Shown here piece by piece: positions 11,001-64,000 of a DNA stretch of 64,000 nt. This DNA comes from Halobacteria archaeon AArc-dxtr1 (lineage in GTDB: Archaea > Halobacteriota > Halobacteria > Halobacteriales > Natrialbaceae), in NCBI GenBank assembly GCA_025517425.1, contig JAOPJY010000001.1, positions 1,660,217 through 1,724,216 of the forward strand, given 5' to 3'. The notes beneath the pieces were generated by a model that made no database searches, was not told the origin of the DNA, and saw only the letters and a program-made list of their open reading frames with translations. How positions within the stretch are numbered: the first letter of the stretch is position 1; the number at the start of each line of letters is the position of its first letter. The position numbers were made by a program, and so were the translations under genes.

Positions 11001-14000
11001 ACTGTTGCCGTCGATCCGTAGGTTCTCACCCCCATCGATGTAAATTCCGCGGTCGGACTGCGAAATCTTGTTTTCGAGAATCTCGACGGAGTCCACCGAA
11101 ATAACGTCCACGCCCCGCTGGTCGGTCTCGATTTCGTTGCCCGAGACCGTTGTGGTTTCTTCGAACGATGAAACGTGTTCTTGTCTGATCGAAATTCCTG
11201 CATACGAACCGTCTTCGATCCTGTTGTCGGTGATCGATGCCCCGTCGCTGTCGACCACGTAGATCGCCCGATCAGACTCGGTTATCACGTTCTGCTCGAT
11301 CGTTGCGTCCGTGGAGCTCCAGACGCTAATCGAGCCGGATATACCGCCGTGGCTTGTCTGTGTAGTCGCTAACTCGTTATCGGCGATGGTCACGCCCGCA
11401 CTGTGAACGACCTGAATCCCGGAGATCACGCCGTCGATATCGAGTCCGGAGACGGTCGCGTTCTCGACGTCAACGAGGATTATCTGTCCGGGGTTCTCAG
11501 GAATCGTCGGGTCGCTGACGCCGGCCGCGTAGAACAGGTCGTCCTCGCCGACGGTGTTTCCGGACATCTCGTGTGGCTGCTCGTCGAGATTTTCGGGAAC
11601 GCCGTCGAAACGAACGCCGGTGGCGAACTGGTTGTCAGTGACCGTGACGTTGATCGCATCGTCGAGCACGAGGTCGACTTCAGTCCCCGAAAACTCGTTG
11701 TCACGGACGATCGTATCGTCACCCGCGTGTGGGATTGCCTGGGAGATGTCGCGGAAGGTGTTCCCCTCGATGACCGTCCCGTCCATGGAGCTAGTACCGG
11801 CCCGGAGGATCCCCCATTCGGCACCTTCGATCGTATTGTCCGCCACGACCGTACCGCTCCGGACCTGGATGGCGATGCCGTCTGTTGCCGTTACGTTGTT
11901 CTGGCGTATTTCCCCGTCTCCAACAACAATTCCGTCGGCGTTACTCGTGACGGTGTTGTTGACGATGGCAACGTTGGACCAGTCGGTTCCAAGTTTGATT
12001 CCTGTCCCCGAGTTGTCCGCGATGGAGTTGTTTTCAATGACTACATTATCACTGCCATACCAACCGTCATCGTACGTAATCCCGTCTACGTTCCCGCTGA
12101 TCACGTTGCCTTCGATAGTGAATCCATCGTTGTGCTGAGTGAGATAGAGGCCACTCACGTCGTTGTCGACGAGAGTACTATTTCGAAGTGTGAACTCATC
12201 GCCATTGACGAAGACTGCCCCGTCTCCGCCGGAATACCCCTCGATCCGGAACCCATCGACGGTCACGTCGTCAGACTCTACTCTGATCGCACCCTCGAGT
12301 CCGTCGGTGCCGTCGAGCACGGCTCCCCGCTCAACCACCGACCGCAGCGTCAGTTCCTTGTCGATCGTCAGCGACTCCTCGTAGGTGCCGTTCCCGACGA
12401 AGACCGTGTCGCCCGGCTGGGCTGCGTCGATCGCGTCCTGGATGCTGTCGCCATCCTGAACGCCGTCGACGAGCACCTCAACCGTACTGACCGATTGACC
12501 ATCGACCTCGAGATGGTACGTACCCGCCTCGGCGAGCGAAACGCTCAATCGCTCGGTCACGGTGCTCTCGCCGTCGACGTCGAGATTCCTGGTGTCGTTC
12601 GCGACTTCGATTCCCCCGTCGTCGTAGGCGACGAGTTCGCTCTCGACGCTCTCTCGATTCTGGTGGAGGTTCTCGTATCGAACGTCGACGCTCGCCTCGC
12701 CCGCTGCGCTCGGATCGAGAGGTGCTTCAACGCCGCTTATGATCGAGGCCTGGAGGCGGTTCGTTTCGGTCACGTAGATCGGCTCACCGTCCGGTAATAC
12801 CTCGATTGTGCCGATCTCTTCGTCTTCGATGTAGGCCGTATAGGTTCCGGGTTCGTCGATCGGATCGGTGACAAAAATATAGGTCTCTTTTTCACCGTTC
12901 ACAGGTCCTTCTGCATCCACGAACGCGACGTCTTCGCGATCGTCGAACGCCGGCCCATCAAGCGAGAGAGTCGTGTTCTCATCGGTATACTCCCCGAGGT
13001 TCATCGCCTCGTAGGAGACCTGTATTTGATTGCCCTCCAGTCGCGTGTCGAAAAACGGCAGCACGGACCGGAAAATCGGGTCGTTCTCGTCGACGACGGT
13101 GAGTGTCCCACTCTCTTCGTCGTTGATTCCGAGGGCGTATTCGCCGCTCTCGCTTGGCGCGGTCAGCGGCAGTTCGACCGTTTTCGTGCCGTAGGCGGGC
13201 ACCTCGACGGTCCGGCTAACCTGCAGATCGTCCTCGAGTTGGAGGGTAACGGTCGCCGACGTGGTCGGATCCCAGTCGTTTCTGACCGTGGCCGTGACCG
13301 TTAGTTCATCTTCGACAAACGCACCCCCATCGAACTCGACATCAACGACTCTGGGGTCGGAATCCGGAATATCGCCGGTCCACTGGTGGTGATTGTTCTG
13401 CCCACCGAGCATGACGCGTGAGTCGCTACTCGAACCCGAGACGCCCGCATTAATTGCGATGATACGCTCGTCGCCGCTCGTGACGGCGGCGTACGCCACG
13501 CCATCCACGACGATTACGTTGCTTCGGTCACCGGTCTCGACTGACCAGAGTTCAGTTCCATCCTTCGGGTCGAGCGCTCTGAACGCTTCCGAATCGGTGG
13601 TTTGTGGTACGAAGAGCGTACCGTCGGCGACCGTTGGCGCGTCGGCTACTGCATCGTTGTCCGACCAGCGTTCGGTTCCATCGGCCGCCTTGAGCGCATA
13701 CAACCCATCCTGACCAACGTAGACTGTTGACTCGCCACCTTCACCGGAAACTGTTGGCGATGAAGGTGTTGTTAGAAGCGCCGGTTGCGGATCATCGAAC
13801 TCAACTTCCCACTCCGTCTCACCGGTTTCTTCGTCAATAGCTACGGTGAACAGCTCATAGTCGTCTGGATCAGGATCATTCGAACCAAGGCCTTCCGTAT
13901 AGCTGAAATAGACAAGACCATCTACAATAGTTGGCTCCGTCACCGCACCGCGGTCCTGGAGAGTACCTATCTCGTCCCACGTCCACTGTTCGTCCCCTTT

Positions 14001-14855
14001 CCCTGCGTCGACAGCGATCATCCCGTCCGAGGTGACGTAATAGACGGTTCCGTTGTTGAACGTTGGTCCGGCGTAGACTTGGCTGTTGGTCTCGATGGAC
14101 CAGTTCTCATCACCTGTCTCGGCATCGAGGGAGAGAACCGTGCCTGAGGATTGGTCAGACCAGCTGACGTACACACCCCCGTCACCGACCGACTGGTACC
14201 CGGTCGAGCTTATCGCGTCTTCGTCGGACTCGACGTGCCACTCGATCGCTCCGAGTTCCAAATCGAGTGCCCAAACGCCGTCGGAACCAGAGACATACAC
14301 AGTCCCGTCGACGACCGTCGGCGACCCACGGGCAGAAATCTCTGTCGCCCACCGTTCCTCACCGGTGCCGACATCGTACGCCACGACGCGATCGGACGCT
14401 ACGATAACGAGAATGCCGTCAACTACCGTCGGAGCTGCGTCGCTCTCTAGTGACTCGTCGGCCTCCCAGAGGATCTCACCTTCCTCAGCGTCGAATGTTG
14501 TCGGTGAGACCCGATCGTTCGGCCCTGCATCGTTTTCATCCTCGTTCGCCGTCGTATCGTCTGATCCGTCATCCGCGGAGTCAGAGTCACTCTCTTCGTC
14601 GTCAGGTTCAGGTTCGGCGGGTTCCAAATCTAACGTAGGACCATCTTCGCCGTCTGATATCTCTTCATTGACCCCATCAATATCCGCTGACTTGAGTTCC
14701 TCAGAATTATCAGTCAATCCACCATCTTCGACGCTTGAGGGCCCTATAGCACCAACCGGCACCATAATCGATCCAACCATCAGCACCGAAAACAGAATCG
14801 CAAACACCTGCACTCGACCGAATCGTCGACTCTCTTGGGAGGACCGTCGTTGCAT
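2046..14855 (-). CDS. Giant secreted PGF-CTERM surface protein (about 4,269 aa)
   Basis: One uninterrupted frame encodes a modular extracellular protein. Approximate order: Sec signal peptide (residues 1-37, ending near VPVGAIG); Asp/Glu-rich linker (45-120); PQQ-type beta-propeller with repeated TVVDGTVYV blades (125-490); CARDB/Ig-like domains (500-795); a NosD-like right-handed beta-helix (800-1450); a CARDB domain; a second beta-helix (1550-1940); about six CARDB domains (2060-2720); nine ~101-aa repeats (2725-3635); further Ig-like domains; an acidic linker; and a PGF-CTERM tail (PGFGVLTVLVTIGTLLLG then basic residues). The tail marks it for archaeosortase A processing and lipid anchoring at the S-layer. 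An in-frame GTG lies four codons earlier, but the TATA box position favours ATG 14855. Adhesion, a mucin-like coat or polysaccharide binding are plausible roles; none is proven. Confidence 0.9.
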   Translation of the reverse strand: MQRRSSQESRRFGRVQVFAILFSVLMVGSIMVPVGAIGPSSVEDGGLTDNSEELKSADIDGVNEEISDGEDGPTLDLEPAEPEPDDEESDSDSADDGSDDTTANEDENDAGPNDRVSPTTFDAEEGEILWEADESLESDAAPTVVDGILVIVASDRVVAYDVGTGEERWATEISARGSPTVVDGTVYVSGSDGVWALDLELGAIEWHVESDEDAISSTGYQSVGDGGVYVSWSDQSSGTVLSLDAETGDENWSIETNSQVYAGPTFNNGTVYYVTSDGMIAVDAGKGDEQWTWDEIGTLQDRGAVTEPTIVDGLVYFSYTEGLGSNDPDPDDYELFTVAIDEETGETEWEVEFDDPQPALLTTPSSPTVSGEGGESTVYVGQDGLYALKAADGTERWSDNDAVADAPTVADGTLFVPQTTDSEAFRALDPKDGTELWSVETGDRSNVIVVDGVAYAAVTSGDERIIAINAGVSGSSSDSRVMLGGQNNHHQWTGDIPDSDPRVVDVEFDGGAFVEDELTVTATVRNDWDPTTSATVTLQLEDDLQVSRTVEVPAYGTKTVELPLTAPSESGEYALGINDEESGTLTVVDENDPIFRSVLPFFDTRLEGNQIQVSYEAMNLGEYTDENTTLSLDGPAFDDREDVAFVDAEGPVNGEKETYIFVTDPIDEPGTYTAYIEDEEIGTIEVLPDGEPIYVTETNRLQASIISGVEAPLDPSAAGEASVDVRYENLHQNRESVESELVAYDDGGIEVANDTRNLDVDGESTVTERLSVSLAEAGTYHLEVDGQSVSTVEVLVDGVQDGDSIQDAIDAAQPGDTVFVGNGTYEESLTIDKELTLRSVVERGAVLDGTDGLEGAIRVESDDVTVDGFRIEGYSGGDGAVFVNGDEFTLRNSTLVDNDVSGLYLTQHNDGFTIEGNVISGNVDGITYDDGWYGSDNVVIENNSIADNSGTGIKLGTDWSNVAIVNNTVTSNADGIVVGDGEIRQNNVTATDGIAIQVRSGTVVADNTIEGAEWGILRAGTSSMDGTVIEGNTFRDISQAIPHAGDDTIVRDNEFSGTEVDLVLDDAINVTVTDNQFATGVRFDGVPENLDEQPHEMSGNTVGEDDLFYAAGVSDPTIPENPGQIILVDVENATVSGLDIDGVISGIQVVHSAGVTIADNELATTQTSHGGISGSISVWSSTDATIEQNVITESDRAIYVVDSDGASITDNRIEDGSYAGISIRQEHVSSFEETTTVSGNEIETDQRGVDVISVDSVEILENKISQSDRGIYIDGGENLRIDGNSIENADSGGIRIGIPRSAAPVSSVDDVEVTNNVITGSGGHGIEVDGRDGTTIESNTVIDNADRGIFVDFGSDAGSIHSNDVRNNDVGLYLFARNDDVVAIHDNAIAGNDQGLVYDGHGTLNATNNWWGHESGPSGEGDGDGDSVGENIDYEPFLNENPIGAPPLEAYFDVVIDDMNSPVDTGEDLEVTVTVTNVGEKTGTQTISLEDFDGTVVDTKERTLDGGEDETLALTWTTDTDNVGSGEVTVKSQDDIATAPVSVTHDGPVTITESTTITTPGTYLLDEDLTKDSTAIVIDANDVVFDGQGHTIQGADVDGSQYGIHVDGADNVTLTDVTIDGWDTGLYFSGSDGVVTDVLVENGGTGAEFANAHNNEVTNLVTRHNDYRGLEVGSGWQGYSHDNVFTNVTAYQNEAQQSALSPGAVQVRSGSTGNVFVGLDSSSSQAGLTTFGSGNTFVDVTADDNSMYGLNLESNVGNEFENVSVSGNGWNGIVVDDSSGNVLRDVTASGNYGEGIYLIGDSRSNEPVVHNEFHGVTATENEGSGIGLTAADDSTFTDVTLIDNTGSSLSLVRQSSGNTFTNVTVIGGTWDAVHVASSENYNNAFEDVTIDGSPTGMVIYGENTTVSNLTVTDVEGADVLLDGESDTTLDRLTLGDATVTVVGNGVQLNAAAGSGTGPDGFDSLSRYVEVTSLDDDAALAELRIYYDAADLGDLDESTLGIWRYDGTWHAPGDEPYESGVDANEGYVYATGVTGFSTFGVFGELDDVPDPDPEPASFDVTIDGTADPVVAGEDLLVTATVENTGDEDGTQTVELVADGTVLDEIDVTLTGGESETVTLVWATSTGDAGDAITIVVESDDSEASTDVTVEAAYADLTVVDGTLDRSDVEVGESVTISAEVTNDGTIAGDETISLEIDGVVADDATVSVAPGTTETVTFEHVFADAGEYAVTIGGTAVDTVTVAPPPASFDVLIESTDAPVVAGEPLSTVATVENLGGIESSQTIELVVDGTVVDTVAVSLDGGERETVTLVWATEAEDAGDVSVVVRSDDDEAAAAATVEAAYADLVVVDGTIDPDSVLVDETVTVLAEVTNDGTVSGTRTLTLATSDVSVANETVTVDAGTTETIAFEHAFGAAGEYDLTVDGAPIGTVAVAEPASFDVTIENTTTPVVAGEELDVTTTLTNTGDISATQPIELVVDGTVVDAIDVSLDGGEHETVTLVWATEAEDAGDVSVVVRSDDDEAATATTVEAAYADLVIVDGTVDPTAVTVGDSVAVVVEVTNDGTVAGNEELDFEVDGVPVDAETISVEPGATGTVTFEHAFDEAGEHDLTVNGTAVGTVAVADPDASVLVYGASADRETVGIDESVTVSVDFFNSGDQPGIETLVLDVDGEAVDEATVFVESGITRDGGTLSWTPAPGDIPDEGESAEVTLSVNGFVVETVTIENQFSDVQVIAASLSETDVIQGEEVYAIGSIYQDGTAEGPETIDLVAIDQETGDEIHLGSQEVTLSPGFYHLGALNITAALEEPGIYDLELGDRSAGTVEVEPAVSDIQVIAASTSEIELIEGEEAYTVGSIYQAGNVEETETIDLVAIDQDTGEEIVLGSQDVTLSPGFYHLGAINITFAPEPGTYDLELGDRSAGTVEVEPGESDIQVIAASTSEIELIEGEEAYTVGSIYQSGNVEGTETIELTATNTETNETEIIGSQEVTLSPGFYHLGALNISFAPEESGTYDLELGDRSAGTVEVEAAESDIQVIAASTSELELIEGEEAYTVGSIYQAGNVEGTETIDLVAIDQDTGEETDMGSQEVTLSPGFYHLGALNITFAPDEPGTYDLELGGQNAGAIDVEPAVSDIQVIAASPDGYNLTVGEEVNVIGSVYQAGNIEGTQEISLNATHRGTNETVSVGSQEVTLSSGFYHLGALNISFTPEEAGTYDLELGGRDAGSVSVEQSLSDIQVVGSSVADVELIEGEHTSVTGSIYQAGEEGGTETIELTATNTETNETDVVGSQDVTLDPGFYHLGAINITFEPHAPGTYDLHLGERYAGWVEVEAAESDIQVIAASTSEIELIEGEEAYTVGSIYQSGNVEGTETIELTATNTETNETEIIGSQEVTLSPGFYHLGALNISFAPEESGTYDLELGDRSAGTVEVEAAESDIQVIAASTSEIEVLEGEELYVVGSIYQAGNVEGTETIDLVAIDQDTGEEMVLGSQEVTLAPGFYHLGALNVTATIDDPGVYDLKLGDRDAGELDVTEAYSDVQVIAASSSEIEIALGQELHVVGSIYQAGNVEGTETIELVAIDQDSGEEFVVDSQEVTLAPGFYHLGALNITFQPEQTGAYELRLGDRYAGTVEVVEPTVDPSITNVEGYSDGYDLDLEADAVYASEDTTVTIDVESDFDLEEATLLVSSMQTTYSVGVDATHDGSDRWTAEIPLDALPDDGAYEVSVIAVDEQGNAGMDAADELLVIDRNTPSMSVTIEDVDGDSATVVVESDEPLSDVPDVSAVVVHDDGSTSPVTVTLDGTSNSDQLFTGTIEFEESGEYVVTATGTDRAGNVGSNDVSTVINTGFTIGDGEIVIDETGTTITFDVIEEAEQAILAEELFLALSENSVNTNLGAGELGVGFLTAQLDGFIDYHMESGTIESATVSMAIDEHELDDGASVDDVGLYHLDETSGDWNAVDSTVTYYDDDPFVVADVTRFSTYGALVIDEEPPEIVDVSPADGTSLDAETEEITVGFEYEDALSGVDVGAVALTVNGEDVTDGENAQITGSVAEYTFDVAPGESYVAEITVADNAGNVASAETAFEVEDEVDPTPDEPPEIVDVSPADGTSLDAETEEITVGFEYEGVSSTADGAVALTVNGEDVTDDENAQITDSVAQYVLAVAPGESYAATLTILAEDGSDVTAETSFAVEDAVPDDDEDDSDGTDDASDDERADGDGVDRSADDSRTATGDDSADDDSVPGFGVLTVLVTIGTLLLGRSLVRTRRKKNARS
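3960..6690 (-). repeat. Nine tandem ~303-bp (101-aa) domain repeats in the giant gene
   Basis: Nine consecutive units each begin S-D-[IV]-Q-V-[IV], carry GSIYQ.GN, then GSQ[ED]VTLSPGFYHLGA.N, then YDLELG and AG..EVE. They look like CARDB/Ig-type beta-sandwiches. The third and seventh copies in protein order (DNA about 5770-6070 and 4560-4860) are identical in protein sequence and differ at only a few synonymous bases, which points to recent duplication or gene conversion. Confidence 0.92.
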
Positions 14856-14875
14856 GCTGAGGGTCACACGTAAAT

Positions 14876-53692: not shown

Positions 53693-53807
53693 AGGCGGTG
53701 TACCGCTTCGATCAGGAAGTTCGTTGGGGGTGCACTCGCCGGATTGGGTCGACGGATCCATCGTCGGGGCGAGGGATTTTTCTCCACGCGCTCTGATACG
53801 CCGGTCG

Positions 53808-55883
53808 ATGACGATGGATCTCGAGGCGATTCCGGGCGTCGGCGAGAAGACCGCCCGCGCGCTGTCGGCACTCGACGACCCCGAACGGGCCTTACGGACC
53901 GGCGACGTCGCGACGCTCGCCGCGGCGCCGGGGATCAGCCAGGGACGGGCCGCTCGGATCGCCCGCGGTGCGATCCGTAGCGAGCACGACGATCCCGGCG
54001 GCTTCCTCGCGACCGACCGTGCCCGCGAGGTCTACCGCGAACTCCTCTCGCTGTGCCAGGAGCGGGCGGTGACCCGCTATGCGGCCCAGCGCCTCGAGAC
54101 GATCTACCCGAGCGCGCGGCGCTCTCGGATCGAGGAGGTCCGGGCGTTCGCCGAACGGGCCGTCGAGCGCGAGCCAGACCCTGCGGTTCGCGAGGCGCTG
54201 TCTGGCCTCGAACCGCTCGAAGAGCCCGGCGACGTGCAGGTTCGCGAGCGGTGTCTGGCCACCGCGGACGCCGAGCGCTACGCCGAGGCTCGGGAGGCGG
54301 TACCCGAGCTCTCCGTCGAGGTCGTCGACGACGCCCAGGGACTGGCCGAACTGGCTCGGGGGTACGCGACGGTGATCGCCTTAGACGAGCAGTTCGCCGG
54401 GATCGCCGTCGACGGCGACGTGCAGGTGCGCCCCGACGCTCTCGAGAATCCCGCCGAGATCGTCCCGGAGCGCCCGCTGGCCTTTTTCGCGCGCAATCGC
54501 GACCGCATCCGGGCCGCAGTCGCCGTCCACCGCGCGGCAGCGATGGACGCCCCTTGTGACCTCGCGGCGCTCGAAGACGGGCTCTCTCGCCTCGACGCGG
54601 ACGGGACGGTCGCGGGCGACGACGAACTCGACCGACTGACGGTAGCCGTCGACGATCTGGACGCGGCCGCCTCGGCGGCCGAGAGCGTCGCCAACGACCG
54701 ACTACGCGAGGCGATCCGCGAACAGGACGTCACCATCGAGGGCGCTGACCTACTCTCACTGGTCGAGCGCGGCGCGGGCGTCGATTCGTTACTCTCCCGG
54801 GAGCTGGCCGACGAGCACGCTGCCGCCGTCGGGGCTGCCCGCGAGCACCTGATCGACACCCTCGATCTGGACGCCGGCGAGAGCGAACTCGCCCGCCGGG
54901 TCTTCGACGACGAGCCGACGTTTCCAGTCGAGCGCGAGGAGAGTGCCCTCTCTCGGCTCCGCGAGGAGCTGACGGCGGCCAAAGAGCGCCGGGCCGCCCG
55001 GCTCAAGCGCGAGCTGGCCGCGGAGCTGGCCGACCGGCGAGAGGGAGCCGAGGCGTTGGTCCGCGACGCGCTCGAACTCGACGTGGAGCTCGCAATTTCC
55101 CGCTTCGCCCGCGATTTCGACTGCACGATGCCGGAGTTCGTCTGGGACGACGGGGAGGGAGATAACGGGGTGGGGAACGACGGAGATGTCGGTGACCGGA
55201 CGGCGACCGCCGTGACACAGGCAGACGGCGGCCTCTCCGCGACGGGATTCGCTATCGAGGGCGGGCGCTCGCCGCTGCTCGCCGAACCGCCCGAGGAAAT
55301 CGACCCCGTCGACTACGAGGTCTCCGGCGTGGCTCTCCTCTCGGGGGTCAACAGCGGCGGGAAGACCTCGACGCTGGATCTGGTCGCGAGCGTCGTCGTT
55401 TTGGCGCACATGGGGCTGCCCGTGCCCGCGGACCGGGTCCGGCTGCGCCGATTCGACGGGCTGCACTACCACGCGAAGACCCAGGGAACTCTCGATGCGG
55501 GCGCCTTCGAGTCGACGATCCGAGAGTTCGCCGACCTCGCGTCGGGCGGCTCTGGCGCGCTCGTCCTCGTCGACGAACTCGAGAGCATCACCGAGCCGGG
55601 TGCCTCCGCGACGATCATCGCGGGCATCCTAGAGGCGCTGACCGAGAACGGCGCGACCGCCGTCTTCGTCTCCCACCTCGCAGGCGAGATTCGAGAGGAA
55701 ACCGCCGTCGACGTCACTGTCGACGGCATCGAGGCGGTCGGGCTGGTCGACGGCGAGCTCGAGGTCAACCGGTCGCCGGTGAAAAACCGGCTGGCGCGCT
55801 CGACGCCCGAACTCATCGTCGAGAAGTTACACGACGAGCACGACGCCACGTTCTACGACCGCCTGCTAACGAAGTTCGAGTGA
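53808..55883 (+). CDS. MutS-type ATPase with N-terminal helix-hairpin-helix
   Basis: The 691-aa protein opens with a helix-hairpin-helix (MTMDLEAIPGVGEKTARALS, then LAAAPGISQGRAARIA), followed by lever/clamp helices with long charged coils, and ends with a MutS ATPase: Walker A LLSGVNSGGKTSTLDL, Walker B GALVLVDELES and the H-loop AVFVSHLAGEIREE. The MutS mismatch-binding domain I (Phe-x-Glu) and the Smr nuclease of MutS2 are both missing, so it is a separate haloarchaeal branch. Junction or recombination-intermediate binding is more likely than mismatch recognition; this is inference. ATG 53808 is chosen over ATG 53814 (two codons on). Confidence 0.88.
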   Translation: MTMDLEAIPGVGEKTARALSALDDPERALRTGDVATLAAAPGISQGRAARIARGAIRSEHDDPGGFLATDRAREVYRELLSLCQERAVTRYAAQRLETIYPSARRSRIEEVRAFAERAVEREPDPAVREALSGLEPLEEPGDVQVRERCLATADAERYAEAREAVPELSVEVVDDAQGLAELARGYATVIALDEQFAGIAVDGDVQVRPDALENPAEIVPERPLAFFARNRDRIRAAVAVHRAAAMDAPCDLAALEDGLSRLDADGTVAGDDELDRLTVAVDDLDAAASAAESVANDRLREAIREQDVTIEGADLLSLVERGAGVDSLLSRELADEHAAAVGAAREHLIDTLDLDAGESELARRVFDDEPTFPVEREESALSRLREELTAAKERRAARLKRELAAELADRREGAEALVRDALELDVELAISRFARDFDCTMPEFVWDDGEGDNGVGNDGDVGDRTATAVTQADGGLSATGFAIEGGRSPLLAEPPEEIDPVDYEVSGVALLSGVNSGGKTSTLDLVASVVVLAHMGLPVPADRVRLRRFDGLHYHAKTQGTLDAGAFESTIREFADLASGGSGALVLVDELESITEPGASATIIAGILEALTENGATAVFVSHLAGEIREETAVDVTVDGIEAVGLVDGELEVNRSPVKNRLARSTPELIVEKLHDEHDATFYDRLLTKFE

Positions 55884-57171
55884 CGTAGCTCGCTCACCGG
55901 CGGAAATGACGAGCGACTCCCTCCTTTTCTGTGTCTATACGTTCGCCTGTGGAACCGATACGGCGACTGTCTGTGTCGCTCAGCTCCAATCTGGAGAAAA
56001 ACTACCAGATCAGTACACAAATATTATTTCTGATTATTGTAGTGGTTGTGGCTATTTTCCAACTACTCAGGGGTTGTCATATCTGGCTGGAAGCCAGAAC
56101 CAGATCGGAGTCAGAGTGAGTTATGCGGGGCGACATGGTGTTCCAAATTCCTGATAACAAGGAACGACAGCATACCTCTTCTGCCTTCTCTAACGCGTGT
56201 ATGGTGCGTCTGAAGCCAGTATAACGCACTCACTCTGATCCCGGTACTGTGCTGAAACCCTATTTTGACGCTCCCCGTTTCTTACCGACACCTCTCTTTC
56301 GTCTCGAGAGCGGCGATCCCTCAAACCAGATCGTGAGATAGAATAAATCTATGCACTACATATAACTCTCGTGTCTTTACGCACAAAATATTTTAAATTT
56401 GGTAGTTCTCTCTCCTCGAAGCAGAACGGCAAAGATCTACTCGACCCATCGCCCCACAGAACGATCTCTCCATCTCCAAAGACTGACCGAAATCGACGCA
56501 CCATCTGGCGAATGGGGGCCGTTACTCGCTCTCAACGACGTGTACATTCTCTCGCATATTGTTGGGGTCGGGAGCACAGACGTAGTACCGCATTTCGGCG
56601 GTTGGTTCGACGCCACCGAGCGTTTGCTCGTCGTCGGTCGTTATTTCCGTTTCGTCGTCATCACCCCTTTCATTGTCACCGTTTCCACCATCCTCACCAT
56701 TTCTGATATCGTCGCCTGCATAGCCTGCGAGGAGAGCGATGGAACCGGTTCCACCAGCGACCGTTATTAATTCTCGCCGTGATATATAATCATCTATTAT
56801 CATGTGATGCCTGATAGATGAGTTTGAATTTTTTGCTGCCTGTCACATCGGTGCTTACCTTCTTTTCGTCCGTCGTCCGCGGCCTGTGTAGAGTCCGGTA
56901 CAGGATGCTGACGGCGGGGTTGAAGCTGATTCAGATCTCAATAAATTACAACTATAGGTGTGTAATTCTTCTCGTGATACCGTCTGCACTCGACGAGGGG
57001 TTCCTCGAGTTCTCAACGCCGGTTCTGACAGCTCCCTTCTGGCACTCTGCTCAGCTCACGACGACATGCTCCTCTCTGCCACTTTTACTGATAGGCTTGA
57101 ATGAAATTACGCTCTGTTTGAATGAGTCACCACTCTAACATATACATCAGATCATGTTTATTGTCTGTAGC
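55884..57171. other. AT-richer gene-poor region with decayed sequence
   Basis: Base composition drops and no intact gene is supported over almost 1.3 kb. The only recognisable content is a lipoprotein-like fragment (56522-56803, minus strand) and an inverted repeat: TCAGAGTGAGTTATG near 56112 faces a complementary ATAACGCACTCACTCTGA near 56220. The region marks the border between the conserved part and the surface-protein accessory cluster. Confidence 0.5.
56522..56803 (-). pseudogene. Probable remnant of a Tat lipoprotein gene
   Basis: The frame reads MIIDDYISRRELITVAGGTG, then SIALLAGYAGDD and an Asp/Gly/Asn-rich linker, as in a haloarchaeal Tat lipoprotein. The lipobox Cys is replaced by Tyr (LAGY for LAGC), and after about 60 residues only a short segment (AEMRYYVCAPDPNNM) remains before the stop. 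No binding or enzymatic domain is left. It could still be expressed as a small secreted protein, but decay is the simpler reading. Confidence 0.5.
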
Positions 57172-57613
57172 ATGTCGTCGACTGAGATGAGCGATGACGA
57201 ACCGACAGCAGACGAAACAGCGAGTTCCAGGCGGCGGTTTCTACAGGACGCCGATGGGTGAGGGGACGATACCGTGGCCCGGAATCCCCGACGGGAGTGG
57301 TGGACCGATGACAGGGCCCGTCTATCGGCACGACGAGGAGTTTGCGGAGACGGCGCTTCCCGAGTATTACGACGGCAAGCACGTGATCATGGACTACCAC
57401 GATAACTGGAGTCTCATCGCCAACTACGATGACGCCGACGAGGCGATGACGGTCCACGGATTCCTCCCCGAGCAACTCCAGTTAGGATCCCCGTTCAAGG
57501 CCGAGATCGGACCCGACGGACATCTGTACGTCATCGAATACGGTGTCGGCGGATTCGGTCCGACCACCGATTCTCACATCTACCGGATCGAGCACCATCC
57601 GAACGGCCAGTAA
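57172..57613 (+). pseudogene. Internally deleted paralogue of the PQQ sugar dehydrogenase
   Basis: An ATG at 57172 opens MSSTEMSDDEPTADETASS, then RRRFLQDADG and a stop at 57259: this is a Tat N-terminus cut short. In the next frame, from about 57255 to 57613, GEGTIPWPGIPDGSGGPMTG and GPVYRHDEEF lead to FLPEQ and IGPDGHLYVIEYG. These align with the C-terminal ~95 residues of the dehydrogenase at 59404-61143 (GEVTWPGV, GPAYRYSEAF, FLPDH, YGPQGRLFMMDY). Signal and C-terminus are thus joined out of frame with about 1.2 kb of gene missing between. Confidence 0.8.
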
Positions 57614-57675
57614 CGCGTACCACGACCCACTTACCGTCTTCCGATATCCGTCCCCGATGATATCAACAGGAAGAC

Positions 57676-57687
57676 AAAAATATAATT
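57676..57687 (+). promoter_or_regulatory. TATA box of the cupredoxin-like gene
   Basis: AAAAATATAATT is centred about 30 nt before the ATG at 57713 and sits in locally AT-rich DNA, consistent with a near-leaderless transcript. Confidence 0.5.
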
Positions 57688-57712
57688 ATTCGACGGAGAA
57701 CCTATCCAAACG

Positions 57713-59017
57713 ATGACTCTACGGGAAATACGACGCCGGTCTCTGCTACAGTCTGCGGTGGTGGCCGGAGAGGCGACCCTCCTTCCGACCGGTTCGCTAT
57801 CGGCAGCTCCCGACCGGCGTATCATATCCCGCCCCGAGACGGAGGAGTACGAACAAACGTTCGAGTTCGACGCCTACATCGATCGGTGGGCGTGTACGTA
57901 CCCGCCCGAGTTGGCGGGAACCGATAACCCGACGCTCCGACTCGAACCCGGATCCGTTTATCGAATTATCTTCACCGTCAGTCCCGAAGGCAGCGAGCAC
58001 GACGTTACGCTCGACAGCGTCGAGACGGCGTCGAGTCAGGACGAGTTCTTGATGCAGACGGATTCCGTTCACGACGCCGGTGAGACCCAGGAGTTGGTGT
58101 TCGAAGCGACCGAAGAACTGTTTTCGTACTACTCGACCGTCAATCCGTCTCGACAGCGCGGATTTATCGATGTGGCGGGCGTCCAGAATGATCGCGTTCG
58201 GTTCCGTCACCTTACGCTCCAATCCGATCGCTGGGTCGGCACTGCCCCGGCTGCAATAGACAGCGTCGAGAACCCGACGCTCGAACTCGACGCCGGCTCC
58301 GAGTACCGTGTCGTTCTGACGTCCGACGTTGACGAAGACCATCACTTCGTAATCGAGGACGCGTCCGGTGATGCCGTTCCGGTTCAGACGATGACCGATA
58401 ACGGACAGGTTACGGAGGTTGCGTTCGAGGCGACGACCGAGATGGCCGCCTACGCGTCCGAGACGGGTCAGGCACAAGCACGGGGCGAAATCGAGGTCGA
58501 CAGTTCTGACCTCAGAGCGCAGCGATTGGCACACCTGGAAGCGGCATGCGATATCGTCCTCGAAAGCGACGAGGACGGCTGGCGGGGGCTCGCTCCCGAC
58601 TCCCTCCAGCACGAACTGAATCCGACGCTCGAACTCGACGCTGGCGAGGAGTATACGATCGGCTGGCTCAACGGTGATGGTGGGGCACACAGCCTCGTCG
58701 TCGAAGAGGCAAACGACGTGACCGTCGCCGAAACGCCCGTCGGTGACCGCGAGGCGGAGTACCAGACGCTCTCGTTCGAGGCCACCGAGACGATCGACGC
58801 CTACCGGTGCCCTTCCCACTCAGCGGAGATGGCTGGCTCGATTTCCGTGACTGGTTCGGAGTCGTCGGACTCACTCGCGGAAACGGACGACAGGAACGGC
58901 GAGGAAAGTGACGAGGCGGCCGATGAGACACCAGGATTCGGAATCGTCGCCTCCCTCGCCGGAATCAGCGCCGGTGTTGCAACGGTCGCAGCTAGGTGGC
59001 ACAACGGTGGCGAGTAG
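57713..59017 (+). CDS. Three-domain cupredoxin-like surface protein with PGF-CTERM
   Basis: The 434-aa protein has a Tat-like signal (REIRRRSLLQSAVVAGEATL), then three ~110-residue beta-barrel domains of cupredoxin type, and a PGF-CTERM tail (TPGFGIVASLAGISAG) for archaeosortase processing. Only the third domain carries a full type-1 copper set: His326 (GGAHSLVV), Cys366, His369 and Met373 (AYRCPSHSAEM). Domains 1 and 2 keep the first His (SEHDVTL, DHHFVIE) but have Ser at the Cys position and no second His or Met. It is probably an electron carrier on the cell surface with one active copper domain and two degenerate spacers. It lies next to a PQQ-type dehydrogenase, a possible electron donor; this partnership is inferred. 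Confidence 0.85.
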   Translation: MTLREIRRRSLLQSAVVAGEATLLPTGSLSAAPDRRIISRPETEEYEQTFEFDAYIDRWACTYPPELAGTDNPTLRLEPGSVYRIIFTVSPEGSEHDVTLDSVETASSQDEFLMQTDSVHDAGETQELVFEATEELFSYYSTVNPSRQRGFIDVAGVQNDRVRFRHLTLQSDRWVGTAPAAIDSVENPTLELDAGSEYRVVLTSDVDEDHHFVIEDASGDAVPVQTMTDNGQVTEVAFEATTEMAAYASETGQAQARGEIEVDSSDLRAQRLAHLEAACDIVLESDEDGWRGLAPDSLQHELNPTLELDAGEEYTIGWLNGDGGAHSLVVEEANDVTVAETPVGDREAEYQTLSFEATETIDAYRCPSHSAEMAGSISVTGSESSDSLAETDDRNGEESDEAADETPGFGIVASLAGISAGVATVAARWHNGGE

Positions 59018-59121
59018 GACGGTAGTGTGGCCCCTCCACGACCTTTTCGGATCCATTCGCTCCGTTGGTGATTCGGCTGGGTCACGTTGTCTTGTTGCCC
59101 TCGAACGTCCGAATATTGAGT

Positions 59122-59334
59122 GTGACGGCGGAAACGGACGAGTCAGGCGAACGAATTTGGGTCCTCAGAGAAACCGACACCTCGGCTCCGGGAAGCCGTC
59201 ACCAGAGCAAAGGAAGCGCTATCAGAAAGGCTCGAATAATCGCTTCCCACGGGGTTTTCGAAGGAGTGTTAGTCAACGATCCGGACGGAAGCAGTACTCG
59301 GTACGTCGCTAACTCTGATGGAACATTTGACTAA
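59122..59334 (+). CDS. Small DUF2188-like protein
   Basis: A GTG-initiated frame of 70 aa reads VTAETDESGERIWVLRETD, then SRHQSKGSAIRKARIIASHG and FEGVLVNDPDGS. The order (Trp-containing strand, Ala/Lys-rich helix, short hydrophobic strand, DG turn) resembles DUF2188, small domains of unknown function. The start is uncertain because there is no ATG; an upstream TTG at 59065 is also in frame. It lies between two convergent surface-protein genes. Confidence 0.5.
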   Translation: MTAETDESGERIWVLRETDTSAPGSRHQSKGSAIRKARIIASHGVFEGVLVNDPDGSSTRYVANSDGTFD

Positions 59335-59403
59335 CTGTCCACAGCAGGCGACTGAGCGTCTACCGGCGCGCTCAGAGGATGCCTGGGGGAACTCGTTCAT
59401 AGA

Positions 59404-61143
59404 TCACTCATAGTACTCGATCATGTGGATACCACCGTTCCCGATATCTGAGTAGTCCATCATGAACAGCCGCCCCTGGGGGCCGTACTTCATCTCGGTC
59501 GGGTCCTGCCACGGGTGATCGGGGAGGAACTCGTTGACCTCGACGGTGCCGTCCTCCTCGTAGGTGAGATAGCCGACCCAGCTGTCGGGTGCAAATGGCG
59601 CCATGAGGAACTGTTTCCCCTCAAAGTGGGGATCCAGTGCCCCCTCGCTAAACGCCTCTGAATACCGGTAGGCCGGCCCAGCGTTCGCGGAGCCGAGCTC
59701 CGAGACGCCCGGCCAGGTCACCTCTCCGGGTTGGGGCATATCGACCCACGGTGCCGCCTCGACGTAGCTGTCCCAGTCTTGAGCCTGCCAGACGGTCGCC
59801 GGCGTGACGTTCGGGATGTCCTCGATACCGGTGTTGTTCTGGGAGTCATTCCGGAGGTTGTCGGGCCAGTAGGGTTGGCCGGGCTGGTCGCTCTCGAAGT
59901 CCCAGCGGCGGTAGGGGTAGTAGCCCTTGAAAAAAGGCCAGCCGGCATTGGCCGGCTCGCAGATCGCGTGCCACGTTGCCAGCCCAACTGGACCGATATC
60001 TGTGTCCCAGCCCCCGCCGGGGGCATAGTCGCCGACGAAGATCGAAGCGGTGTGCTCGTCGACTGAAATGATAAACGGATTCCGAAAGCCCATCGCGTAG
60101 ATTTCCGGTCGGAACTCCGCTTCGGTATATGAGTCACCCGTCTCGCTTTCCCAGGCTTCCTTGAGGTTCCCCTCTGGAATTGAGTACCCATCATTTTCGG
60201 GAACGATCCGGAGGACTTTCCCACGCAAATCAGCTGTGTTGCCAGACGTACGGCGACCGTCGAAGTTCGGGTGCGCTGTTTCGCTATCATCGAGTGGCCC
60301 CCACGTCGATCCAATGGCGTTGGCGTCGTCACCGGTCGTGACATAGAGGTGCCCCTCGGGCCCAAACTGGAGGTTCCCGCCGCGGTGACAGCAGTAGTCG
60401 TGTTGCTCGTGAATGCGAAGAAGCTCCACTTCCGAAGTCGGATCGATCCGGTCGTTTAACGTCTCGAATTGTGAGACAACCATGTACCCGAAGTCGACCT
60501 CGCCGTCGTACCACTCTGCGTAGGGGCTTTGGACGTCATCGCGCTCGTCGGCCGGCGGCGTGTAGTAGACGTAGACGTAGCCGTTGTCCTCGAAATCGGG
60601 ATCCAGCGCGATAGCCTGTCCACCGAGTTCCCGCGCCTCAACGTGCTCGTCAGGTTCTTCAAGTGCCCCTACCTGCACATCGAGTTCGATCGCAATCTCG
60701 TGGTTGCCGGTATCCGGGTCGATCCAACCAATTTCGGACGTTCCGTGTTCGAGCGTCACGAATGGAGCTCCTCGTGTGATATACCACACTCGTCCATCGG
60801 GCGAGATGTCGATCGACATCAGGTTGTCGACCGCCAACAGCTCGGTGATCTCGTAGTTGTCCCAGTCGGTGGCAGCGTCGGGATCCGGCTCACCCCAGGC
60901 AGGATCGTGGTCACGGTGCCAGGTTTCCTCAACCCCATTGGTTTTCTCTCCGTTCCCACCGGTTTCCTCGCCGTTTCCGTTCTCGTCTCCGTTTCCACCA
61001 TCATCTCCAGTATCGCTTGCGGGACCGTCAGTACCGTCGAGACAGCCCGACAACCCGATCGCCCCTAAACCACCAACACGACAGAGCAACCGATTTCGTT
61101 TACCGGTTGCTCTGTCGTTTTCGCTACCCTCGTGTTCGGTCAT
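59404..61143 (-). CDS. PQQ-dependent sugar (sorbosone-type) dehydrogenase lipoprotein
   Basis: The 579-aa protein has a lipoprotein signal: GKRNRLLCRVGGLGAIGLSG then Cys34, with KR-N-R in place of the canonical twin Arg. An Asp/Asn/Gly linker follows. The rest is a glucose/sorbosone-dehydrogenase-type propeller: MSIDISPDGRVWYITR, GGQAIALDPDFEDNGYVYVY, HRGGNLQFGPEGHLYVTTGD, RNPFIISVDEHTASIFVGDY and KYGPQGRLFMMDY. Soluble PQQ dehydrogenases of this fold oxidise aldoses outside the cytoplasm. The substrate here is unknown. Neighbours include a cupredoxin-like protein and a carbohydrate-binding-like lipoprotein. A decayed paralogue lies at 57172-57613. Confidence 0.87.
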   Translation of the reverse strand: MTEHEGSENDRATGKRNRLLCRVGGLGAIGLSGCLDGTDGPASDTGDDGGNGDENGNGEETGGNGEKTNGVEETWHRDHDPAWGEPDPDAATDWDNYEITELLAVDNLMSIDISPDGRVWYITRGAPFVTLEHGTSEIGWIDPDTGNHEIAIELDVQVGALEEPDEHVEARELGGQAIALDPDFEDNGYVYVYYTPPADERDDVQSPYAEWYDGEVDFGYMVVSQFETLNDRIDPTSEVELLRIHEQHDYCCHRGGNLQFGPEGHLYVTTGDDANAIGSTWGPLDDSETAHPNFDGRRTSGNTADLRGKVLRIVPENDGYSIPEGNLKEAWESETGDSYTEAEFRPEIYAMGFRNPFIISVDEHTASIFVGDYAPGGGWDTDIGPVGLATWHAICEPANAGWPFFKGYYPYRRWDFESDQPGQPYWPDNLRNDSQNNTGIEDIPNVTPATVWQAQDWDSYVEAAPWVDMPQPGEVTWPGVSELGSANAGPAYRYSEAFSEGALDPHFEGKQFLMAPFAPDSWVGYLTYEEDGTVEVNEFLPDHPWQDPTEMKYGPQGRLFMMDYSDIGNGGIHMIEYYE

Positions 61144-61155
61144 GCCATAATATTA

Positions 61156-61170
61156 CTATAAACTAATAAG
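61156..61170 (-). promoter_or_regulatory. TATA region of the sugar dehydrogenase gene
   Basis: The minus strand reads CTTATTAGTTTATAG, about 14-27 nt before the ATG at 61143. Two overlapping TATA-like boxes fit; the upstream one (CTTATTAG) has the usual spacing. Confidence 0.45.
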
Positions 61171-61400
61171 TGTGTTACGGCGGATCTCCCATCCAATTAT
61201 ATGATCTTAACTCCTGACTTGGGAACGCCGCCCTAACTCATAGCGCGATCTGTTTCGCTAGTGTCTGTACGCTTGATCTTGTCGCCGTTTCCCCCTTCAG
61301 TCTCTACATTGTGTTGGTCTGTCTCAGGACAGTTTCGCAGGGTACGATGATTCGTAGCCATCCCCGACAGATAATCTCTCCAAATAATATGGATGAAAAG

Positions 61401-61409
61401 AATAATATG
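61401..61409 (+). promoter_or_regulatory. TATA-like box of the CARDB/binding-module lipoprotein gene
   Basis: AATAATATG is centred about 29 nt before the ATG at 61435. The ~290-nt divergent space between this gene and the dehydrogenase is AT-rich and could hold shared control sites, but I see no clear operator. Confidence 0.42.
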
Positions 61410-61434
61410 ATGTCTGTTATATTGTCTCACTGCT

Positions 61435-63441
61435 ATGGGGTCCAAATCAAATACACGGATCGAGCGGTATAGGCGTCGCTTCTTGGAGGGAATGGGAACA
61501 GTCGGGATAGCCGGTGTGCTGGCTGGCTGTTTGGGCGACGACGACGCAAACGGCGATGATGCAAACGGTGACGATGCAAACGGCGACGATACAAATGGTT
61601 CCGGTGACGAACCGTCGTCTTTCGAAGTGGATGAACTGTTACCCGGTGATGAGACGGTAGAACGCGGAGGGGGTATCGACGTCAGTGCTGAACTTACGAA
61701 CAGTGGCGATGACGAGGGGACTCAGGAGGTCGAGTTACTCTTTGATGGTGACAGCGAGGCTACTGAGAGCCTGACGCTGACCGGCGGCGAGACCCAGAAC
61801 GTGTACTTCGCAGAGATTGAGACTACAGCCCTCGACGTCGGCGAGTACGAGTATGAGCTGGTCACCGAGGACGACAGTGTGAGTGCGACCCTCGACGTCG
61901 ACGGTGTGTTAGATGACGACCCGCTGCTTACGCTTGACGAAGACGAGGTTGGACAGGGCGAACAAACCCTCTCAGGAACGATCAGCAATCCATATCCAGT
62001 ACCGCTTGAGGACGGCGAAATCGACCTTGGCGTTCCCGATGGATGGGAACTCACTGATCCCGACGGGACTACGTTCGACGAGTTAGCAGCGCTTGGTTCT
62101 CAAGACGTCACGTGGACGTTGACTGTCCCTGCCGATGCCGAGGGCGAGCACGAATTGACTGCGTCGGCCAGCTATACGTCCGCCAACGAGTCCGCCGACG
62201 GATCGGCGAGCTTCCCGGTTGCGATCGACCTCTGGGATGGGATCGAATTCGTGGAATCGACCCACTTCGAGGACATCTTCGAGGGGCCGGACGATCGCTG
62301 CATCGAATGGGACGGAGATAACCCTGCCTGTGGTTGGGGGCCGTACGAAATCGACCTGAGCGATTTCCTCCCCGCCGAGAACGTCCAGTTGCTGTTCGAG
62401 GACCCGTACACCGACGACGGCTACGGGGTGTCGCTGTTAGAGATGACCGTCCGAGCCGACGGCGAGGAGATCCACGTCATAGACGGCGATTCGGAGACGG
62501 AAGTAGAGGAGTACCTCGTCGAGGAGTCCGGATCTAACACCAACGAGGGGGACACGTCGTCCTGGCGGTTTGCCGATGGCGAGGCCTGGTGGATCTACGA
62601 GTTCGACGTCCCCGAGGGAGCCGAGGAACTGACGGTCGAGTTCGAGATGCGAAACGGGTGGCAGATTTCGACTCGAACGATTCCGGCGAGCGACGTCGAG
62701 GATCCGGAGACGGATCCGTCGGTGCTCGCCGACTTCGTGGTCACGGACCTCGAACCAGGGGATACCACCGTCGAACACGGGGAGGTGGTTTCCGTCGACG
62801 CCACCATCCTCAACAACAGCCAGGCAGAGGGAACCCGGGACGTCGAGTTTACCGTCGGTGGACAGAGCGACGTGGTAGAGCTCAGCCTCGACGGTGACGA
62901 AACTGAAGACCTCTCGTTCGAAGTCGACACCGGCGACCTCTTCGGCGACGAGTACGAGTACGAACTCGACACCGGCGATCATACGGCGAGCGCCACACTG
63001 ACCGTCGAGGGCGACGATCGCGAGTTCGAGGAGGTGTTCCACTTTGAGGATGTCTTCGACGGGCCGGACGACCGCTGTCTGGAGTGGGACGCGGACGATC
63101 CAGCCTGCGGCTGGGGTCCGTACGAGGCTGACCTGAGCGAACTCTTGCCCGCCGACCAGATTCAGCTCCGATTCGAAGATTCGTACCCAGACGACGGGTT
63201 CGGCGTCGCGCTCAACCAGCTGACGATGCTCGCTGACGGCGAGCTGGCTCACACCTTCGACGTCCCCACCGAGGACGAGGCGTACTTGGTCGAAGACAAC
63301 TCCAGCGGGGCCGATCCTGAAAGCCACCGATGGGCCGACGGCGAGGACTACTGGACCTACCAGTTTGAGATCCCCGAGGATGCGGACGAACTGACAGTCG
63401 AGTTCTGGATGCGCAACGGGTGGCTCATTTCGGGCCGCTAA
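61435..63441 (+). CDS. Lipoprotein with CARDB domains and a duplicated binding-like module
   Basis: The 668-aa protein has a Tat lipoprotein signal (RYRRRFLEGMGTVGIAGVLA, G, Cys32), then a repeated DDANG linker, a CARDB domain (about 60-155), a NEW3-like domain (about 165-265; GVPDGWELTDPDG), module A (about 274-425), a second CARDB domain (about 430-530) and module B (about 535-668). Modules A and B share GPDDRC.EWD, PACGWGPYE.DLS, QL.FED.Y.DDG.GV and W.YEF/WTYQFEIP. Each has two Cys 10 residues apart (289/299 and 548/558), likely a disulfide. NEW3 and CARDB often accompany carbohydrate-active proteins. It lies head-to-head with the sugar dehydrogenase, so substrate capture for that enzyme is a reasonable guess. 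Confidence 0.82.
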   Translation: MGSKSNTRIERYRRRFLEGMGTVGIAGVLAGCLGDDDANGDDANGDDANGDDTNGSGDEPSSFEVDELLPGDETVERGGGIDVSAELTNSGDDEGTQEVELLFDGDSEATESLTLTGGETQNVYFAEIETTALDVGEYEYELVTEDDSVSATLDVDGVLDDDPLLTLDEDEVGQGEQTLSGTISNPYPVPLEDGEIDLGVPDGWELTDPDGTTFDELAALGSQDVTWTLTVPADAEGEHELTASASYTSANESADGSASFPVAIDLWDGIEFVESTHFEDIFEGPDDRCIEWDGDNPACGWGPYEIDLSDFLPAENVQLLFEDPYTDDGYGVSLLEMTVRADGEEIHVIDGDSETEVEEYLVEESGSNTNEGDTSSWRFADGEAWWIYEFDVPEGAEELTVEFEMRNGWQISTRTIPASDVEDPETDPSVLADFVVTDLEPGDTTVEHGEVVSVDATILNNSQAEGTRDVEFTVGGQSDVVELSLDGDETEDLSFEVDTGDLFGDEYEYELDTGDHTASATLTVEGDDREFEEVFHFEDVFDGPDDRCLEWDADDPACGWGPYEADLSELLPADQIQLRFEDSYPDDGFGVALNQLTMLADGELAHTFDVPTEDEAYLVEDNSSGADPESHRWADGEDYWTYQFEIPEDADELTVEFWMRNGWLISGR

Positions 63442-64000
63442 TCCTCTTGAACGACGGCACCTAGTAGTTGATTGGGTGTCTCTCACCCATCGCCTGTTCC
63501 ACAAAACAGGAGATCCACTGTCGTCTGTCAATTCACCCTCTTACGAGATACTGTGAATGCGGGCCGAGTGCAGGCAGGCTCGACGTGGATGGAAATATAA
63601 CCAATCTCTCAGATCTATATTTTATTCTCTTAGCAGACATATCTCCCAACATACTCATCCCCGTCGTGCTCAAGAGAGAGGCCGAGATCTGAATCGCTGT
63701 GATGTAGCCGTCAGCGGGTGACCGTCATCGACGAGAATCATGGTTTTTTAGGTCACAGATCGTGTGGACTCTCGAGAAATTCCGGCAGTTATCGAAACGC
63801 TTTGCCCTCGAGTTTCTCATGACCGTTCCGAAGAAATTGCCACGCCAATGTCCCTACAGGCGCCGAAAGACCGTCTCTGAACAATCGAACGGTGTCTGAA
63901 TCGACGGCAGCGTACAGCCAGACTGCTGTCCATTGATTCGACCATCGTCTCGTTGAGAGCCACGTGATCTGGACAACATTGCTGGCTGGCTGTAGACTAC
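63442..64000. other. Gene-free end of the window
   Basis: No intact reading frame or RNA gene is supported. A few in-frame words near 63930 (SIDSTIVSLRA) vaguely recall transposase sequences, but stops interrupt every frame and I cannot assign a family. A short AT-rich patch at 63590-63640 could contain a promoter or terminator. Confidence 0.45.

Follow-up and report, generated by a model that had tools for sequence, protein, structure and literature searches.

Three genes of export type are carried by a single genomic island in the analysed window (the whole stretch of 64,000 nucleotides from Halobacteria archaeon AArc-dxtr1). According to the ORF list they are located at 57713-59017(+), 59404-61143(-) and 61435-63441(+) and encode proteins of 434, 579 and 668 aa, respectively. 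The features of the island are as follows.

55884..64000, no strand: lineage-specific island, running to ~64268 past the window end (tblastn/blastn against three congeners)
56522..56803, minus: cupredoxin lipoprotein remnant, signal and last strand only, lipobox Cys lost (sequence matches)
57172..57261, plus: N-terminal remnant of a decayed dehydrogenase lipoprotein, RRRFLQ signal then stop (three-frame translation, tblastn)
57194..57613, plus: ORF that retains the C-terminus of a decayed GSDH of ThuA type (tblastn; gsdh profile over residues 23-135)
57713..59017, plus: three-domain cupredoxin with a Tat-like signal and a PGF-CTERM-like tail below cut-off (profiles)
57872..58174, plus: cupredoxin domain 1, which has lost its copper site, YYS..Q (profile and alignment)
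58220..58498, plus: cupredoxin domain 2, which has lost its copper site, YAS..Q (profile and alignment)
58559..58849, plus: cupredoxin domain 3, full type-1 set His326, Cys366, His369 and Met373 (alignments)
59404..61143, minus: GSDH lipoprotein; propeller 94-579, with CCH253, R354-N355-P356 and G384-P385 conserved (PF07995, model, fold comparison, profile alignments)
61144..61434, no strand: divergent intergenic region between the GSDH and CARDB lipoprotein genes (ORF coordinates; same arrangement in genome G202, locus L145)
61435..63441, plus: CARDB-NEW3-X-CARDB-X lipoprotein (PF10633 and custom profiles)
62236..62694, plus: X domain 1, a predicted beta-sandwich, carbohydrate-binding-like (profile; AF2 model, mean pLDDT 73)
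63016..63438, plus: X domain 2, sharing 62% identity with X domain 1 (profile and alignment)

The island measures ~8.4 kb and its DNA is absent from the three congeners L224-L226, as determined by tblastn/blastn of the window and flank. The flanking genes (53730-55883 and 64296-65435) are conserved in these congeners, where they stand 1.8-1.9 kb apart, and the locus is therefore a lineage-specific island. The congeners display at this site ~1.9 kb of DNA with an open frame of ~450-477 residues, MFS-type-transporter-like when inspected by eye. The GC content of the island is 49-62%, compared to 62.3% overall and 63-72% just upstream. Since the orientations of the three genes are +, - and +, the trio is not an operon. 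Elsewhere in the window, a 4273-aa ORF (2046-14867, minus strand) contains at least 7 CARDB-like repeats detected with custom profiles.

The island is partly decayed, with two gene remnants inside it. The segment 57172-57261 translates as MSSTEMSDDEPTADETASSRRRFLQDADG followed by a stop and displays the N-terminal signal of this lipoprotein type. A second frame (~57260-57598) matches at 67% (E 2e-47) residues 735-856 of the ThuA-GSDH paralogue L022:13571-16144, which are the last ~120 residues of that protein. The decayed copy is, as judged from these matches, a ThuA-type GSDH remnant from which a large internal part has been deleted and whose frame has changed. The sequence-only reading had reported a decayed dehydrogenase copy at this place; the decay is borne out by the signal-stop and the frame change. 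An origin as a copy of the intact GSDH neighbour was rejected, the match being 33% to the neighbour versus 67% to the ThuA type. A second decayed gene of the island, missing from that earlier reading, is found at 56522-56803(-), with matches of 53% to the start of L028:18233-19339 (residues 1-49) and of 45% to the end of the L030:16606-17142 cupredoxin.

The 434-aa cupredoxin has the signal motif RRRSLLQ and a PGF-CTERM-like tail including a PGFG motif. Its scores were under the cut-offs of both PGF-CTERM TIGR04126 (17.6 bits, cut-off 24.5) and halocyanin TIGR03102 (26.8 bits, cut-off 93.8). The type-1 His-Cys-His-Met ligand set is present in domain 3 only, domains 1 and 2 having lost the ligand Cys, and the four corresponding columns of domain 3 are all invariant in alignment A5. 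Domain 3 is a predicted type-1 copper site, in agreement with the single intact site announced earlier.

The 579-aa GSDH protein matches PF07995 with 53.3 bits (cut-off 25), and its AF2 model has a pTM of 0.79 and a mean pLDDT of 69.5. The closest fold is that of Pyrobaculum Asd (3a9g; Z 35.3, rmsd 2.4, 324 residues), and the comparison gave Z 28.4 with sGDH 1qbi, Z 27.5 with human HHIP and Z 24.9 with CcPDH 6jt5. The model predicts a six-bladed propeller fold as in Asd and sGDH. His144, Arg228, Asn229 and the Ca2+-site Gly247-Pro248 of Acinetobacter sGDH, numbered in part after PMC6881789, align with H253, R354, N355 and G384-P385 in the profile alignments. Alignments A1 and A2 show no variation at H253, R354 and N355. 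The PQQ carboxylate anchors Lys377, Arg406 and Arg408 of the Acinetobacter enzyme have no counterpart in the profile alignment, which is of low confidence in this stretch, and the score with TIGR03606 (glucose/sorbosone PQQ-dependent dehydrogenase) was 32.8 bits, under the cut-off of 434.55. The protein thus resembles Acinetobacter sGDH (1cq1/1qbi) and the Asd of Pyrobaculum and E. coli in its fold (Z 28-35) as well as in its catalytic His, its Arg-Asn pair and the Ca2+-site Gly-Pro. It differs from them, which have no carrier domain, by the missing anchors and by a CCH motif. This vicinal Cys-Cys pair (CCH, residues 251-253) immediately precedes the catalytic-His equivalent and is invariant in 12/12 archaeal and bacterial relatives of alignment A2; it is absent from Acinetobacter sGDH and also from the paralogue L023:13162-15777.

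The 668-aa protein matches NEW3 PF10633 with 45.7 bits (cut-off 24.4). Custom profiles placed cardb domains at residues 61-156 and 432-525 and X domains at 268-420 and 528-668; CARDB PF07705 was not listed for this protein, and homologous domains of paralogues score above cut-off (e.g. 44.2 bits). Its description as a CARDB/NEW3 lipoprotein with binding-like modules is supported by the Pfam match for NEW3 and by the custom profiles for the CARDB-like domains. The X domain model resembles the C-terminal domain of an Akkermansia enzyme (8pxu; VIA Z 10.5), CBM rows being weaker; Foldseek returned no match with E below 0.001 for this model, so that VIA Z values alone speak for the fold. The X domain also occurs inside GxGYxYP putative glycosidases, and the two X domains may bind carbohydrate. 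With respect to the claim that all three proteins are exported and anchored, the signals and lipoboxes support it by sequence: the CARDB protein has a Tat-like RRR motif and the lipobox AGC (Cys32), and the GSDH protein the lipobox SGC (Cys34). The PGF-CTERM score of the cupredoxin is under the cut-off, and the signal of the GSDH protein has KR instead of RR.

Twelve GSDH genes, all belonging to one family, are spread over contigs C1, C2 and C4 of this 2.8 Mb genome; most congeners have none. GSDH matches were obtained at E 1e-20 in 5 of 125 genomes of the taxonomic family and at E 1e-40 in 14 of the 392 genomes sampled in the order, with 3-4 candidates scored per genome in the order-wide searches, so that these tallies give presence and not copy number. 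A single-protein search of the genome contigs returned no confirmed relative; relatives were found by the alignment-based search.

In order to evaluate whether the parts belong together, 34 GSDH proteins from haloarchaea outside this genome were considered, their loci having been selected on similarity to GSDH and without regard to cupredoxin. With custom profiles, a cupredoxin was found in-chain in 24/34 GSDH proteins and within 6 kb in 6/34 more, these loci coming from related genomes and the counts not being independent events. Within this genome, one of the 12 GSDH genes is fused to a cupredoxin, 3 have a cupredoxin within 6 kb and 8 have neither. Conversely, 5/10 cupredoxin genes have a GSDH gene no further than 6 kb away; with an adjacent pair counted once, this becomes 4/9 versus the 4.4% of the genome that lies within that distance (P ~4e-4 under random placement). 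The fused forms include the architectures cup-CARDB-GSDH-cup, cup-CARDB-GSDH-malectin-cup (e.g. L030:7482-10736) and cup-CARDB-GSDH-3keto-3keto-cup. Fusion architectures are present in Halostagnicola sp. A-GB9-2, Natronococcus sp. CG52, Haladaptatus and Halobacteriales archaeon YIM A00010, with related forms in Halorubrum and others. An exclusive occurrence of the GSDH-cupredoxin fusion in haloarchaea was considered and rejected, as a Georgenia protein (L042) has a Copper-bind match.

In the tree, the GSDH of the window falls within a haloarchaeal clade that contains both fused and free forms. The protein closest to it, at 66% identity, is a CARDB-GSDH fusion from another family, and beside the gene for this fusion a CARDB-NEW3 lipoprotein is likewise encoded in divergent orientation. 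The tree requires the fused/unfused label to change at least 8 times, which indicates that fusion and fission have occurred repeatedly. The expectation that the same trio would be met in other haloarchaea did not hold, since the exact three-gene set is absent from every other genome examined; the modules as a set do recur, either fused or next to each other. The proposal that dehydrogenase, copper carrier and binding modules form one system is supported for the association of modules, through the single-chain fusions, and is not supported for the exact three-gene unit. The association is real at the module level and recurs across haloarchaea; the window would hold it in split form, within an island that has partly decayed.

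Known systems offer several points of comparison. CcPDH of Coprinopsis cinerea (AA8-AA12-CBM1) is likewise extracellular and unites a GSDH-type six-bladed propeller, an electron carrier of its own and a carbohydrate-binding module (PMC4332668, PMC6881789), its electrons passing from PQQ to the fused heme b (PMC4332668). It differs in its cytochrome b carrier and single chain, as opposed to a cupredoxin and three proteins here, and the propellers are 11% identical; no AA8 cytochrome b domain was listed by profile search in any of the three proteins. Relatives from Bacteroidota and Rhodothermota (ThuA-GSDH-PKD-cytochrome c; e.g. L063 Roseithermus, L071) belong to the same GSDH family, with ~36-37% identity, and their carrier is a cytochrome c fused in the chain. 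Unlike the window they use heme c (CxxCH) rather than type-1 copper and include ThuA and PKD domains; no functional characterisation of these proteins was found. The haloarchaeal cup-CARDB-GSDH-cup proteins (L033 Natronococcus sp. CG52, L038 Haladaptatus, L039 YIM A00010) share the domain types and the GSDH clade; they are single chains, in contrast to the separate genes of the window with their three-domain cupredoxin. As heme b in the fungus and cytochrome c in bacteria are fused to GSDH, the haloarchaeal cupredoxin fits the same position in the chain. By this analogy, the best reading of the copper-wired mode is that it would work like CcPDH with copper replacing heme.

The cofactor deserves separate consideration. 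PqqC was matched neither in this genome nor in the controls, and the PqqE search gave one match in this genome, far under cut-off, as in all 14 controls. The initial assignment as a PQQ-type dehydrogenase lipoprotein can thus be retained for the GSDH fold and catalytic residues, the PQQ part being unsupported with the anchors absent and the synthesis genes not found. CcPDH also has no Lys377 and binds PQQ via other residues (PMC6881789), so the use of PQQ by the GSDH of the window is possible from its sequence.

It is about an even call that the three genes encode, in split form and with each part anchored on its own, a copper-wired extracellular sugar-oxidising module that is a single polypeptide in other haloarchaea. 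The CARDB/X lipoprotein would hold carbohydrate near the cell surface, where the GSDH lipoprotein would oxidise a sugar or glycoside, with His253 acting as the base, Arg354/Asn355 positioned at the quinone and probably scavenged PQQ and Ca2+ as cofactor. Electrons would be delivered singly to the type-1 copper in cupredoxin domain 3, the copper-free domains 1 and 2 serving presumably as structural spacers, and would proceed to halocyanin and a terminal oxidase. In haloarchaea, halocyanins have been predicted to carry electrons to terminal oxidases (PMC3403918). Against the split-module reading stand the lack of an exact trio elsewhere, the mixed orientations, the 8/12 GSDH genes with no cupredoxin in-chain or within 6 kb, the missing anchors, the PQQ synthesis searches in which neither this genome nor, for PqqC, any control gave a match above cut-off, the two remnants and the KR signal.

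A different chemistry with the same wiring is a tentative possibility: the GSDH would oxidise C3 of a glycoside, and 3-keto-disaccharide hydrolase domains (PF06439) would cleave the product extracellularly. This alternative concerns the reaction only and is compatible with the split-module explanation. Several relatives have GSDH fused to PF06439 and malectin domains, PF06439 being joined to both GSDH and cupredoxin in several chains, and this genome encodes two-domain PF06439 lipoproteins, one of them adjoining a GSDH gene. The characterised GSDH-fold enzymes are known to oxidise aldoses at the anomeric carbon, which argues against C3 oxidation, as does the lack of a PF06439 domain in the window itself. 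In bacteria, DUF1080 proteins have been proposed as partners of a lactose 3-dehydrogenase (PMC9007349), in line with the C3 reaction. The PF06439/malectin fusions and the multicopper oxidases near such genes make C3 oxidation, or oxygen as local acceptor, plausible in the relatives having those domains; the window has neither such fusions nor a multicopper oxidase gene.

The three genes could also be chance neighbours in a decaying island, each protein having its partner elsewhere in a GSDH- and CARDB-rich genome (37 CARDB matches) and no functional unit being formed. The two remnants, the DNA unshared with congeners, the differing orientations and the absence of the exact trio elsewhere are in accordance with this explanation. 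It is nevertheless unlikely, as the same domain types occur in single chains in many genera, the cupredoxin genes cluster with GSDH genes here and the divergent arrangement of GSDH and CARDB genes is seen again in another family. Least probable is a propeller that is not a quinone enzyme, either a binding domain (cf. human HHIP, of the same fold) or a protein acting without PQQ, with cupredoxins for copper binding or docking: the missing anchors and the lack of matches to PQQ synthesis genes would suit it, but the catalytic His and Arg-Asn are invariant, CcPDH binds PQQ without Lys377 and carrier fusions suit a redox enzyme.

The split-module reading bears on an enzyme family that is already known by name, since plasmid records call the cup-CARDB-GSDH-cup relatives 'PQQ-dependent sugar dehydrogenase'; the copper wiring is less described in the papers found. 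The putative glucose/sorbosone dehydrogenase of Halobacteria was uncharacterised at the time of a 2016 soda-lake study (PMC4766312), and our literature search found no characterised haloarchaeal GSDH member or carrier. The recurrent type-1 copper fusion provides a specific candidate electron acceptor and points to a likely route of sugar oxidation at the cell surface. If true, this would be a natural case of copper standing in for heme as carrier in one enzyme family and would be of use for direct-electron-transfer biosensors working at high salt. More doubtfully, haloarchaea may possess their own class of copper-wired extracellular sugar/glycoside dehydrogenases, with type-1 copper in place of the bacterial and fungal heme carriers, here split into separately anchored proteins; in relatives, such an enzyme would perhaps be coupled to surface hydrolysis of 3-keto-glycosides and to multicopper oxidases passing electrons to oxygen. 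Halorubrum saccharovorum may form lactobionate, for which our literature search found no paper.

A number of additional observations were made around the GSDH genes of relatives. Multicopper oxidase genes are located near GSDH-cupredoxin genes at L032:13641-15728, L038:2245-3915, L040:7169-9094, L151:12881-14719, L154:9952-11751, L156:1-1179 and L160:249-2084, and Natronococcus sp. CG52 has a cupredoxin fused to a multicopper oxidase. When inspected by eye, the loci L037:3033-15753, L031:1263-17066 and L032-L033 display GSDH genes near ABC-sugar-transporter-like and sugar-isomerase-type TIM-barrel genes, as well as UbiA-like and inositol-phosphate-synthase-like genes. At L030:5019-6929 and L032:10941-13238, a xylose-isomerase-like TIM barrel is joined to 3-keto-disaccharide hydrolase domains.
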